Position numbers and translations under genes: made by a program. A stretch of 64,000 nucleotides of DNA from Phascolarctobacterium sp. (GTDB taxonomy: Bacteria; Bacillota; Negativicutes; Acidaminococcales; Acidaminococcaceae). The stretch lies in assembly GCA_030523325.1 (NCBI GenBank), contig JAUNIS010000001.1, positions 1 through 64,000 of the forward strand, written 5' to 3'. Under the pieces are notes generated by a model. That model saw nothing but the letters and a program-made list of their open reading frames with translations, made no database searches and was not told the origin of the DNA. Each line of letters starts with the position of its first letter. The stretch's first letter is position 1. Of the stretch, positions 18,607 to 42,444 are shown piece by piece.

Positions 18607-18751
18607 TAATATATACCTCTTTTCAAATATTAACAAAACAGCAAATTAACAATCAACAAATAATTAAGTATAAACTTCGATTTTATATCTGCAAATTTTC
18701 GATTATAAAACCGCAGGATTCCTCAATTATTAATTATCAATTATAAATTAA

Positions 18752-18991
18752 AAAAACGTCCCATCGTGTTTTACACGACAGGACGTAGTTAACGCGGTAC
18801 CACCTATCTTCTCCAGCAAAAACTGAAGCTCTCAAACATTTAACGCATGTCTGCGCACTTCCCTACTATTAGTTCAGGCAGCGAGCTCCCGGACTACAAC
18901 CTAAATATCTTCGTAGCAGCTTGCACCAAACGCTACCTCTCTAAAACAAATCCAAATAGGTCCTTCCGTTCCTAGCCTGTAAATATATTAC
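18752..18991 (-). promoter_or_regulatory. T-box leader of valS
   Basis: On the minus strand the conserved T-box GGTGGTACCGCG occupies 18804-18793. It is followed by a terminator stem (arms around 18756-18768 and 18774-18786) with a run of six T. The specifier region reads GTTGTAGTC at 18900-18892; all three triplets in that frame are valine codons, matching the regulated gene. Uncharged tRNA-Val is expected to stabilise the antiterminator. Confidence 0.93.
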
Positions 18992-29144: not shown

Positions 29145-29247
29145 GTCGAAACTTCCTTTCTATAAATAAAACAAATTGATAATTTAGGAATAAATCCTTC
29201 GGATTTATAATTAAAACTGATGCGTTTAGGCAAATTTTTAATATGAA

Positions 29248-29302
29248 GATTTCCGTAGGAAATCATCCTCAATTGCTAATTGCTCATTACTAATTGCTAA
29301 TT
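29248..29302 (+). repeat. Solo end of the dispersed hairpin-plus-tail repeat (copy 3)
   Basis: A hairpin gatttcc/ggaaatc (29248-29264) and ATCC spacer are followed by a 31-nt tail of ATTGCTA-type units (29272-29302). The tail matches the terminal repeats of the element in the his operon. The last bases overlap the purD stop codon. Confidence 0.75.
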
Positions 29303-37186: not shown

Positions 37187-37915
37187 TTAGTCCTCCTTCG
37201 CAAGAGCAAGTGCCACTTTTAGATCCACTGCGCCAGTATAAATTGCCTTCCCGATAATGCAACCGGTTACGCCATCCTTTTCGTATGGCTTTAAACGGCG
37301 AATATCATCGAGGGATGCAACCCCGCCCGAAGCAATAATTTCAATACCACAGGCACGCGCAAGCTCACCTGTTGCCTCTGCATTAACGCCTGAGAGCATG
37401 CCATCACGAGAAATATCTGTAAAAATAATTTTGTCAACGCCAACATCAGCCATACGTTTAGCAAGCTCTGTGTAACCAATACCCGAGCCCTCTCCCCAGC
37501 CTTCAATGGCAACATCACCATTTTTTGCATCAATACCACAAGCGATGTGACCCGGATAGTTTTTGCAGGCTTCAGCAACAAGGGACGGATTCTTTACGGC
37601 TGCAGAGCCTAAGATAAGACGAGCGATTCCTAAATCTAAAAGCTTTTCGATTTGCTCCATAGAACGAATACCGCCACCAAGCTCCACAGGAATCCTGATA
37701 GTTTCTAAAATTTTTTGAATTGCAGGCAAATTTTTGCTTTCCCCAGCTAGCGCGCCGTCTAAATCCACAAGATGAAGCCATTCGGCTCCAAGACTTGCCC
37801 ACTTAACGGCCATTTCACTTGGATCGTCCGCAAAAACTGTTTCTTTATCAAAGCGTCCTTCGGTAAGACGCACGCAGCGTCCACCACGCATATCAATTGC
37901 AGGATAAATAATCAT
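37187..37915 (-). CDS. hisA: ProFAR isomerase
   Basis: A 242-residue (beta/alpha)8 barrel related to HisF, with catalytic Asp residues in [17 protein letters not shown] and [12 protein letters not shown]. The ATG at 37915 has AAGGAG eight bases upstream; a GTG three codons earlier is less likely. It overlaps the hisH stop and lies two bases from the hisF start. Confidence 0.96.
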
Positions 37916-38523
37916 GGTTGCCACTCCTTAAATGCTCGTAAAAGAGCAAGACCTACCTTGCTGCTTTTTTCCGGATGAAATTGGAAGGCCTGTACGCTGC
38001 CTTTACCAACGGATGCAGTTACCTCTGTTCCGTAATCCGTCACAGCTGTAATAATGCTTTTGTCTTCGGAATCGCAAAAATAACTGTGCACGAAATAAAC
38101 GTACTTGCCATCAGCATCCTTCAGCAAAGGAGAAACTGTTTTTAATTCTAAAGAGTTCCAGCCCATATGAGGAATTTTTAAATCCGTCTGAATTTTTTTC
38201 ACCTGGCCCTTAAAATAACCCAGGCCTTTGACTCCCGGGTCTTCCTCGCTGCCTTCAAAGAGGACTTGCATACCGAGGCAAATTCCTAAAAACGGCTTGC
38301 CGCTATTTAAAGCTTCCTTTATAACAGGAATCAAACCAGACTTTTCTAGGTTCGACATGCAATCCCCAAAGGCTCCCACGCCCGGTAGCAAAATTTTCTC
38401 GGCACGTCTAATCTCTTGTGCGTCGCTGGTCACAACCGGTTCAGCACCCAAATTTTTCAGCGCGTTCACAACGCTATAGAGATTACCCATTCCGTAATCG
38501 ATAATTGTAATCTTACTTTTCAT
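37912..38523 (-). CDS. hisH: Imidazole glycerol phosphate synthase, glutaminase subunit
   Basis: A 203-residue class I glutamine amidotransferase with nucleophile Cys in FLGICLGMQVLFEGSEE and the His-Glu pair in FQFHPEKS. It supplies ammonia to HisF. The ribosome binding site is weak (AGGT), and the gene lies just downstream of the inserted element at 38543-39148, which may affect its expression. Confidence 0.96.
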   Translation of the reverse strand: MKSKITIIDYGMGNLYSVVNALKNLGAEPVVTSDAQEIRRAEKILLPGVGAFGDCMSNLEKSGLIPVIKEALNSGKPFLGICLGMQVLFEGSEEDPGVKGLGYFKGQVKKIQTDLKIPHMGWNSLELKTVSPLLKDADGKYVYFVHSYFCDSEDKSIITAVTDYGTEVTASVGKGSVQAFQFHPEKSSKVGLALLRAFKEWQP

Positions 38524-38542
38524 CTGTTGACCTACTTAATCA

Positions 38543-39148
38543 AATTAGCAATTAGCAAAGTGCAATGAGCAATTGTGGATGATTTGCCCCGCAAATCTTT
38601 TTATTTAATCTAATTGCTTTTTTCTTTCAATGTTTTTGTAATCGACATAAGAATTCTTAATATCTCTTTACAATCCACATAAATACTATTGAAAGCTTCT
38701 TCATCTATATATCCGCTTTCATATAACAATTCAAGCCAATATTCTGTTTCACTAGCTTCTTTTAACGCAACATACATTTTAGTATTAAAGTCGGCTTTGC
38801 TTTGGGCGTATATTCCTTCTTTTACATTTGCACCAATACTAGTTCCACTTCTTAGAACTTGTTTTGACATAACATATTCTTTCTTTTCATTGCACAAAAA
38901 TCTATTGAGTTTTACAATTCGCAATGCAAAACTTTTACTTTTTTGCACAATGACATTATTTTCTTCCATACTTTATCCTTTTCAAAAATTTTTATAATTA
39001 TCAAAGTATACAATTCGCAAAGCAGCTCTTGAGTTTTTTCACAACGAAATTATTTGCTTCTGTCTTTCAACATTTGCGACATATTTTTAATCATAATCGC
39101 GCAGCGATTATTCCTTCATTGCTCATCGCTCTTTGCTAATTACTAATT
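38543..39148. mobile_element. 606-bp inverted-repeat element carrying a four-helix-bundle gene
   Basis: The ends form 31-bp terminal inverted repeats (38543-38573 and 39118-39148; 28 of 31 match when one is reversed), each made of AATTAGC/AATGAGC-type words. Just inside each end is a hairpin with a different stem: gatttgc/gcaaatc (38581-38597) and ataatcgc/gcgattat (39093-39111). The only gene inside is the four-helix-bundle protein. It separates hisH from hisB. No clear target duplication was seen, and there is no transposase. Confidence 0.75.
38610..38969 (-). CDS. Four-helix-bundle protein of the 23S rRNA intervening-sequence (S23/IVP) type
   Basis: A 119-residue all-helical protein. It has the family core: SFALRIVKLNRFL, then LRSGTSIGANVKEG, then ALKEASETEYWLELLYESGYI, and a C-terminal helix. 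Relatives are encoded in intervening sequences of 23S rRNA genes and in many small genomic inserts; the Avd protein of diversity-generating retroelements has the same fold. AAAAGGA precedes the ATG. It has no role in histidine synthesis and lies wholly within the inverted-repeat element, in the same direction as the his genes. Confidence 0.9.
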   Translation of the reverse strand: MEENNVIVQKSKSFALRIVKLNRFLCNEKKEYVMSKQVLRSGTSIGANVKEGIYAQSKADFNTKMYVALKEASETEYWLELLYESGYIDEEAFNSIYVDCKEILRILMSITKTLKEKSN

Positions 39149-39150
39149 TT

Positions 39151-39735
39151 TTAAAGACTGCCCTTTGAGCTCATCACTCCATGCACCTTTGGGTCAATAG
39201 CGATAGCCTCCGCAAGTGCTCTAGCAAAACCTTTAAAAATAGCCTCGATAATGTGATGAATATTTTTGCCAGAGAGCACGCGAATATGCAAGGTCAGTCC
39301 TGCATTCATTGCAACTGCACGGAAAAACTCTTCTGTCATTTCGGCATCGTAAATGCCCAATTGCACTTTAGGAATATCTGCATCAAAAACAAGATAGGGA
39401 CGACCACTAAAGTCAAGGCAAACTTGTACCAAGGCCTCGTCCATCGGCAGAAAGCAATTGCCATAACGATGAATGCCAGCTTTATCCCCGATAGCTTCTT
39501 TTAAAGCTTGGCCCAAGACAATGCCGCAATCTTCAATGGTATGATGGCTGTCAACATCTAGGTCACCATTAGCTGTGATACTTAAATCGGTAAAGCTATG
39601 CTTAGCAAGAAGAGTCAACATATGGTCCAAGAAACCAATGCCCGTGTCAATATCACATAAACCAGTGCCGTCAAGCTCCCATTCACAACTGACGCCAGTT
39701 TCTAAAGTTTTACGTTCTATATTGGCAATTCTCAT
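39151..39735 (-). CDS. hisB: Imidazoleglycerol-phosphate dehydratase
   Basis: A 194-residue single-domain IGPD with the metal-binding repeats FLDHMLTLLAKHS, DSHHTIEDCGI, and the later HIRVLSGKNIHHIIEAIFK. It lacks a histidinol phosphatase domain, so that step is encoded elsewhere. Two adjacent ATG codons follow AAGGAGG; the second gives the better spacing. The stop lies two bases from the end of the inserted element. Confidence 0.96.
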   Translation of the reverse strand: MRIANIERKTLETGVSCEWELDGTGLCDIDTGIGFLDHMLTLLAKHSFTDLSITANGDLDVDSHHTIEDCGIVLGQALKEAIGDKAGIHRYGNCFLPMDEALVQVCLDFSGRPYLVFDADIPKVQLGIYDAEMTEEFFRAVAMNAGLTLHIRVLSGKNIHHIIEAIFKGFARALAEAIAIDPKVHGVMSSKGSL

Positions 39736-39749
39736 CATAGTCCTCCTTA

Positions 39750-42324: not shown

Positions 42325-42441
42325 AAATTAGCAATTAAGGATGTTTTTGCTTCTGTCTTTCGACCTTTGCAACATATTTTAAATCATAATCGCACAGCGA
42401 TTATTCCTTCATTGCTAATTGCTCATTGCTAGTTGCTAATT
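42325..42441. mobile_element. 117-bp internally deleted copy of the his-operon element (MITE-like)
   Basis: The left edge has only the first 12 bp of the element end (AATTAGCAATTA, 42325-42336). The right 95-100 bp closely follow 39056-39148, including the GCTTCTGTCTTTC stretch, the hairpin with one loop change, and the 31-nt tail (42411-42441). The gene and most of the interior are missing. It lies between hisD and hisG. Confidence 0.75.
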
Positions 42442-42444
42442 TAT

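Follow-up and report, generated by a model that had tools for sequence, protein, structure and literature searches.

Here we show that the 606-bp insert separating hisB from hisH in a Phascolarctobacterium sp. genome consists of a bIVP gene enclosed by inverted arms of degenerate 7-bp repeats, an anatomy that is secure. The insert is probably an element that moves, or did so until recently, one of a widespread family in which inverted arms of about five degenerate heptads frame a bIVP gene. Its recent mobility is likely, and the reading that we favour is a DNA-level mobile element, putatively moving and expressed from the host operon. The intervening sequences (IVSs) of 23S rRNA look like one clade of this larger family of insertion elements, since the same architecture recurs between operon genes, in rRNA and in RNase P RNA.

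IVSs have been described from 16S and 23S rRNA genes and are cut by RNase III; the available part of the same account (PMC4990558) gives the function of their protein, S23p, as unknown, calls the function and origin of IVSs unclear over 25 years, and describes the Xanthomonas S23p as a homopentamer.

Results

Anatomy of the insert between hisB and hisH

The window analysed here is the whole stretch of 64,000 nucleotides. The element, its neighbours and two gene-less copies are located in it as follows.

38543..39148, minus strand: whole element, bIVP gene with inverted heptad arms (sequence comparison)
38542-39149, minus strand: span of the element with one extra matching base per side
39118..39148, minus strand: 5' arm with respect to the gene's strand, built of degenerate heptads, 28/31 against the other arm
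38543..38573, minus strand: 3' arm, inverted copy, plus strand AATTAGC-AATTAGC-AAAGTGC-AATGAGC-AAT
39093..39111, minus strand: hairpin inside the 5' arm, ATAATCGCGCAGCGATTAT (sequence reading and RNA fold)
38581..38597, minus strand: hairpin inside the 3' arm, GATTTGCCCCGCAAATC (sequence reading and RNA fold)
38610..38969, minus strand: bIVP gene, 119-aa four-helix-bundle protein, PF05635 / TIGR02436 (profile match)
37912..38523, minus strand: hisH, downstream neighbour (NCBIfam TIGR01855)
39151..39738, minus strand: hisB, upstream neighbour (NCBIfam)
42325..42442, minus strand: gene-less copy between hisD and hisG, 106/118 aligned bases identical to the his element
29237..29302, no strand assigned: gene-less copy of arm and hairpin, 82% to positions 1-66 of the query

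The bIVP gene thus shares the minus strand with both hisB and hisH. Its product matches PF05635 with 106.1 bits (curated cut-off 33.8, E 1.4e-30) and TIGR02436 with 112.3 bits (cut-off 24, E 1.2e-32), and its solved relative is 2rld (E 8.4e-37), a structure of five chains. A first-pass annotation of this DNA had placed the two ends at 38543-38573 and 39118-39148 with an inverted match of 28/31, and both the coordinates and the match proved right; other alignments of the arms gave 90% identity, or 81% over 26. It had also described a hairpin inside each end and a single gene of the 23S-IVS four-helix family between hisH and hisB, which the RNA fold, the profile matches and the NCBIfam neighbours respectively bear out.

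Beyond that description, the ends are 7-bp tandem repeats, widely repeated in their own genome. Four to five degenerate heptads make up the his arms, with the period-7 array of the 5' arm starting at about 39114, and with inverted 7-bp-repeat arms flanking its gene on both sides the his insert falls within our definition of a heptad-armed bIVP element. When the minus-strand RNA is folded, the arms become the closing stem of the whole element and both inner hairpins form, at a minimum free energy of -157.3 kcal/mol against a mean of -114.6 (sd 7.2) for 20 shuffles (z -5.96). An Rfam scan of the window at the gathering score found no rRNA. Within the insert, a 31-nt direct repeat (38913-38943 against 39009-39039, 74%) suggests a decayed second bIVP start upstream of the intact one.

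Gene-less copies in the same genome and empty sites in congeners

Searching its own genome with the 606-bp query returned 77 matches, with the element and its two arms among them, the majority of which consist of an arm and hairpin without the gene. The hairpins had been called covarying in the first-pass annotation, and their sequence does vary among genome copies with complementarity kept, as judged by eye in L005, L007, L008 and L011. Compared with the his element, the 118-bp hisD-hisG copy is short of 21 bp (three heptads' length) in one arm and of 469 bp of gene-holding interior; a separate match listing gives it as 42346-42441 at 90%. Judged by its alignment, this copy is an internal-deletion derivative of the his element.

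A search for further full copies, which had been proposed as a check, found two more PF05635 genes in the genome, one of them fully armed. The latter (L011) is flanked by inverted arms of another heptad, AATTCGG, of which a gene-less array (L235) occurs elsewhere on the same contig, and next to the other (L010) a short array of yet another heptad type can be made out by eye, on a single side (inverted-repeat score 20). The empty hisH-hisB junctions that were likewise sought were found in both congeners with a readable junction, G001 and G003, where the flank matches lie 27 and 32 bp apart against more than 600 in the window; of the six congeners compared, G006 matched on one side only and three gave no match. 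The insert is therefore not fixed in relatives and its ends vary yet stay complementary, points on which the earlier interpretation had been allowed to stand or fall.

Within G001, a search with its own arm gave 17 matches, two of them its own; the window's genome (G000) gave one, and five congeners that have no PF05635 match, three of which are 60-84% complete, gave none. This distribution points to a lineage-specific spread of the arms. The gene-less copies were placed in tandem at 14, between divergent genes at 4, between convergent genes at 2, within a spanning ORF at 2 and unclearly at 1 of the 23 listed loci, which include a few duplicates; with so mixed a pattern, their placement was rejected as a sign of RNA life.

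Heptad arms across the PF05635 family

We gathered 129 PF05635 loci from the window's own genome, its genus, class and phylum, and a scan of genome contigs, and kept 116 after removing mis-located (L101, L103), flank-cut (L047, L130) and nine near-duplicate loci. Each was scored by the best inverted repeat between its 200-bp flanks, a score of at least 30 being taken as a strong arm. Strong inverted arms flanked 82/116 genes against 0/157 shifted pseudo-genes and 18/461 mismatched flank pairs (81/115 once the identical same-genome pair L084/L087, a second rRNA copy, was counted as one), and they were found in 67/101 of the genes not known to be RNA-hosted. Among lags 4-12, with ties shared out, the best lag was 7 in 82.3/116 left and 77/116 right flanks, and in 34.5/314 control flanks. 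The heptad sequence itself varies by locus (GTTAACA, AATGCGT, AAATGAG, GTATGAA, GGAAGTT and others), and the heptad-armed architecture appears to be general.

Among the 34/116 genes that score below 30, five pass when the flanks are extended to 300 bp; six are weak or atypical matches and several belong to a related, mostly arm-less group. This bIVP group (L106, L107, L143, L146, L151, L138, L145, L148 and L161) has no arms within 200 bp and often a divergent upstream neighbour, and is perhaps a domesticated form; the score of L106 rises to 48 with 300-bp flanks. Two other bIVP genes (L046, L051) stand beside arrays of period 8, not 7, and in L255 (G497 contig 150) a stretch of a few kb has several bIVP genes, all diverged, on one strand and with other genes in between.

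Relatives were found in 28 named plasmid records, 11 of them from Nostoc, and in 2/50,697 phage records. All ten plasmid loci that were fetched, from Nostoc (6), Anabaena, Treponema, Bernardetia and Chlorohelix, have inverted arms with scores of 39-87, and nine of the ten have a best lag of 7 on both sides, the exception being L205. The left flank of L208 contains a long, near-perfect run of GTGATTA, a strongly expanded array. Arm length has its mode at 35-38 bp (20/87) and the 7-periodic run its mode at five units (54/136; both counts leave out L202, L205 and L204, a duplicate of L203), peaks that are only suggestive because the detection thresholds favour arms of some length.

Structured RNAs and operon gaps as hosts

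Rfam was applied to 57 of the 129 loci, most of them chosen because ORF neighbours were missing or the flanks looked odd and the others picked freely, and because this choice was non-random the following are counts and not rates: the bIVP gene lay within 23S rRNA in 14 loci (11 genomes) and within RNase P RNA in 3 (L137, L142 and L139, from two bacterial families), on the sense strand of the RNA in 17/17. All 13 listed 23S elements are inserted at a single site, between CGAAG and GGTAGGGGAGCG, taken here to be helix 45. In L137 (G249), L142 (G322) and L139 (G497), a helix of RNase P RNA carries the bIVP gene together with heptad arms; alignments place the L137 and L142 insertions in one helix, presumably P12, and the flanks of L139 are identical. 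In G287, a congener of G249 from a genus other than the window's and the sole other genome of that family compared (three searched), rnpB is empty, with 339 nt and a short hairpin, against an armed bIVP insert of about 430 bp in G249 and G322, and outside the insert the sequences are nearly identical.

All non-RNA-hosted elements seen lie between protein genes. With neighbouring ORFs called by length only, the upstream gene is co-directional in 66/70 and the downstream gene in 56/69 armed loci, RNA-hosted ones included; when the RNA-hosted loci were left out because their ORF calls are spurious, these counts became 63/66 and 54/62. At arm-less loci the upstream gene is co-directional in 18/30 (Fisher p 3e-5 against the armed 63/66). 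The first-pass annotation had regarded the his insert as the same kind of element as a 23S IVS, which is upheld by the common protein family, the complementary arms and the heptad make-up, and the insert is placed among co-directional operon genes. In the Anabaena cylindrica plasmid pANACY.01, an armed bIVP gene (L207, 2489-2836) separates cas2 from cas1 and is oriented opposite to the two. The very long frames surrounding two PF05635 matches, which had the look of in-frame insertions into big genes, were artefacts of masked N runs and were rejected.

Pairing of the arms at the DNA or RNA level

Where pairing of the sense-strand RNA is kept, G.U should exceed A.C mismatches between the arms, and a DNA-level process should leave the two equal. 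The 15 RNA-hosted elements have 40 G.U and 21 A.C mismatches (p 0.020), nine leaning to G.U and one to A.C; dropping the second rRNA copies of one genome leaves 13 elements with 35:19 (p 0.040), of which seven lean to G.U against one to A.C (p 0.070). No such excess was found in 74 intergenic elements, with 150 G.U against 153 A.C (p 0.91) and 31 against 26 elements by lean. The RNA-hosted and intergenic counts differ at p 0.025, or at p 0.040 without the second rRNA copies; L204 is left out throughout, and before L139 was re-assigned the counts stood at 35:20 and 155:154. On this modest signal, RNA pairing of the arms seems to be under selection in 23S and RNase P hosts, and selection at the RNA level on intergenic arms was rejected, the same comparison giving no sign of it between genes.

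These counts bear directly on the explanation that keeps most weight beside a DNA-level element, namely an intervening sequence of the mRNA: the arms would pair in the his transcript, RNase III would cut there and the mRNA would persist as two pieces, hence the sense orientation. A strong predicted stem, arms like those of the 23S and RNase P elements with their uniformly sense-strand genes, and the near-constant direction of the upstream gene are what it would lead one to expect, and 23S IVSs are known to be excised by RNase III, according to the available text of PMC4990558. We nevertheless consider it unlikely, given the even intergenic mismatch counts, the gene-less copies that also occur between divergent genes, and the fact that excision is not required in an intergenic gap. 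The first-pass annotation had supposed that the his transcript folds its ends together and could be processed there; the predicted stem is as strong as supposed, but the even strand counts speak against processing, as does the position of the his protein in the tree below.

Arm likeness, selection and phylogeny of the proteins

In a comparison that took in no plasmid loci, arms tended to be alike where the proteins are alike: an arm score of at least 30 was reached by 11/14 pairs at or above 70% protein identity, by about 10/43 at 60-70%, by 12% of 215 pairs at 50-60% and by about 1% or less below 50%, part of this correlation coming from orthologous sites or from rRNA copies of one genome. 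The left arm of L059 is unlike (scores 10 and 12) those of two loci whose proteins share 93-95% identity with its own; by eye its heptads are the reverse complement of those of the two relatives. Also by eye, L041 and L042/L043 have like heptads in unlike places, ahead of a dnaE-like gene in one case and between a carA- and a carB-like gene in the other. The arms of L112 (23S-hosted) and L137 (RNase P-hosted) are alike (score 54) at a protein identity of 55%. Purifying selection acts on the bIVP protein, dN/dS staying at or below 0.20 in all unsaturated pairs of the 60 shown out of 158.

A quick protein tree (117 rows and a small number of columns, 123) was built without Leptospira and Coxiella sequences; it omits the weak or atypical L013, L074-L077 and L093 (L078 having gone as a duplicate), and also L204, L202 and L205. 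All 15 RNA-hosted proteins, from 13 genomes, fall into a single clade with an SH-aLRT of 99 and one host-class change, the RNA host having been checked for part of the rows, and the RNase P-hosted proteins occupy two places inside this clade. The his protein belongs to a different deep clade, which also holds proteins of Bacteroidetes, Selenomonadaceae and cyanobacterial records.

Heptad arrays beyond the bIVP loci

At a threshold of 20 of 28, ten bIVP-bearing genomes yielded 7 period-7 arrays in 400 kb and seven bIVP-less genomes yielded 1 in 260 kb, but in the bIVP-bearing set the arrays of periods 6 and 9 numbered 9 and 8, no fewer than those of period 7. Two bIVP-less congeners yielded one period-7 array in 388 kb (a 20-kb stretch, L199, is counted in both bIVP-less sets), and the window five, the his finding itself included. 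Other stretches of G000 held 28 arrays in 369 kb, with 4 and 1 at periods 6 and 9, a count biased by the choice of some stretches on contigs with known matches; an AGTGCTG array lies in one stretch with known matches (L250), and G000 stretches without them held 2 arrays in 200 kb. A higher heptad density in bIVP-bearing genomes is suggestive only. One period-7 array of the window, at about 18716-18759 (AATTATTAATTATCAATTATAAATT), adjoins a T-box leader at 18776-18982.

Such arrays could also be taken to mean that there is no mobile element, polymerase slippage and inverted template switching having made the 7-bp arrays and the bIVP gene merely lying in unstable places. Heptanucleotide repeats are over-represented in bacteria and are ascribed to slippage in the part of PMC4692102 available, and arrays do change by whole heptads, as in the hisD-hisG copy with its 21 bp and the long arrays of L201 and L208. 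Slippage, however, does not set matching inverted arrays around one gene family in many species. Nor does it account for the likeness of some arms between 23S and RNase P hosts, or for a second copy in the his operon that is 90% identical and cleanly deleted in its interior, and we regard this explanation as very unlikely.

A putative DNA-level mechanism

On the favoured reading, a DNA-level element would have inserted into the co-transcribed gap between hisB and hisH after the split from the congeners. Read-through of the his operon would express the bIVP gene, so that no promoter of its own would be needed. The bIVP protein, a pentamer by homology, may recognise the arms and promote their copying or joining, and gene-less copies could use the same bIVP in trans. 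The clade of 23S and RNase P IVSs would have settled in structured RNAs, with RNA pairing of the arms selected thereafter; host RNase III may cut the his stem too. The modal arm of about five heptads and the pentameric bIVP together prompt a more specific proposal, which we offer tentatively: S23/bIVP proteins might be the trans-acting partner of the heptanucleotide repeats strewn through many bacterial genomes, and a homopentameric bIVP ring might read a five-heptad arm with about one subunit per heptad and mobilise armed and gene-less elements alike at the DNA level, the 23S and RNase P IVSs being the branch that turned to life in structured RNA.

Results from the flanks and the genome tell against the favoured reading, as do the low-scoring 34/116 genes, the share of orthologous sites and rRNA copies in the arm correlation, and the unlike left arm of L059. 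The longest string common to the two flanks averaged 3.42 in 72 elements (L204 left out) and 3.27 (sd 0.11) in shuffled pairs, and with no clear excess of flanking direct repeats target-site duplications were rejected, which sets the element apart from a classical DDE transposon or MITE. No transposase or other enzyme lies within the element, and the 92.55%-complete host genome has no match to the Y1 transposase PF01797 or the reverse transcriptase PF00078, on which grounds a RAYT or a reverse transcriptase as mover was rejected.

RNA-templated mobility, through an RNA copy and a reverse transcriptase supplied in trans, as with the Avd protein of diversity-generating retroelements, would suit the nearly strict sense orientation and a protein family that resembles Avd (PMC10053308, available part), but the window's genome has no such enzyme by PF00078, gene-less copies lack strict placement and intergenic arms lack a strand signal, all of which makes it very unlikely.

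Discussion

The analysis joins two questions, the function of the S23/IVS protein and the excess of 7-bp repeats in bacteria. If the arms are recognition sites of bIVP, the protein gains a defined substrate and the repeats a source, and the IVSs of 23S and RNase P RNA can be seen as an offshoot of a larger family living between ordinary genes. The RNase P RNA insertions are a natural case of an essential ribozyme with a protein gene in a helix.

That a known protein family occurs here in a new setting is real. As far as searched, the heptad-armed anatomy is undescribed, a claim to novelty that is weak because the literature covered was that of open-licence PMC papers. Those papers, including PMC2858038 and PMC5524665, contained in the parts available nothing linking heptad arrays to PF05635 generally, and nothing linking IVSs to mRNA; subscription papers and preprints lay mostly outside this scope.

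Among known systems, REP/REPIN sequences with their RAYT combine short dispersed palindromic copies with one possibly trans-acting gene, as the armed elements do, although the 7-bp arrays are not REP-like. The RAYT is also a different protein from bIVP, and the host genome is devoid of Y1_Tnp matches, just as its lack of PF00078 matches sets the element apart from a diversity-generating retroelement. Short tandemly repeated repetitive sequences (STRR) reportedly occur inside rnpB of heterocyst cyanobacteria (according to Vioque in 1997). The cyanobacterial STRR, the Xanthomonas GGGAATC and the Beggiatoaceae TAACTGA repeats are intergenic 7-bp tandem arrays, with inverted cases mentioned in the parts available of PMC4692102 and PMC4679880, the main texts of which are free of the words S23 and helix bundle. 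Dispersed heptanucleotide repeats are generally not associated with mobile elements according to the former (PMC4692102, in part), unlike the arms of the putatively mobile his element.

The closest likeness is to the 23S IVSs of Leptospira, Coxiella and others. These are located in rRNA, as set out in the available part of PMC4990558, and the his element occupies an operon gap; unlike theirs, its protein stands outside the 23S/rnpB clade and intergenic arms carry no RNA-strand signal. The his insert thus has the long-stem ends of a 23S IVS, with neither the 23S/16S location nor a grouping with 23S bIVPs. The two have in common the protein family and mutually complementary ends that take the place of a loop or occupy a gap, and the 23S IVS of Coxiella, in the same partly available source (PMC4990558), has a few tandem heptamers before its ORF that resemble the his arms.
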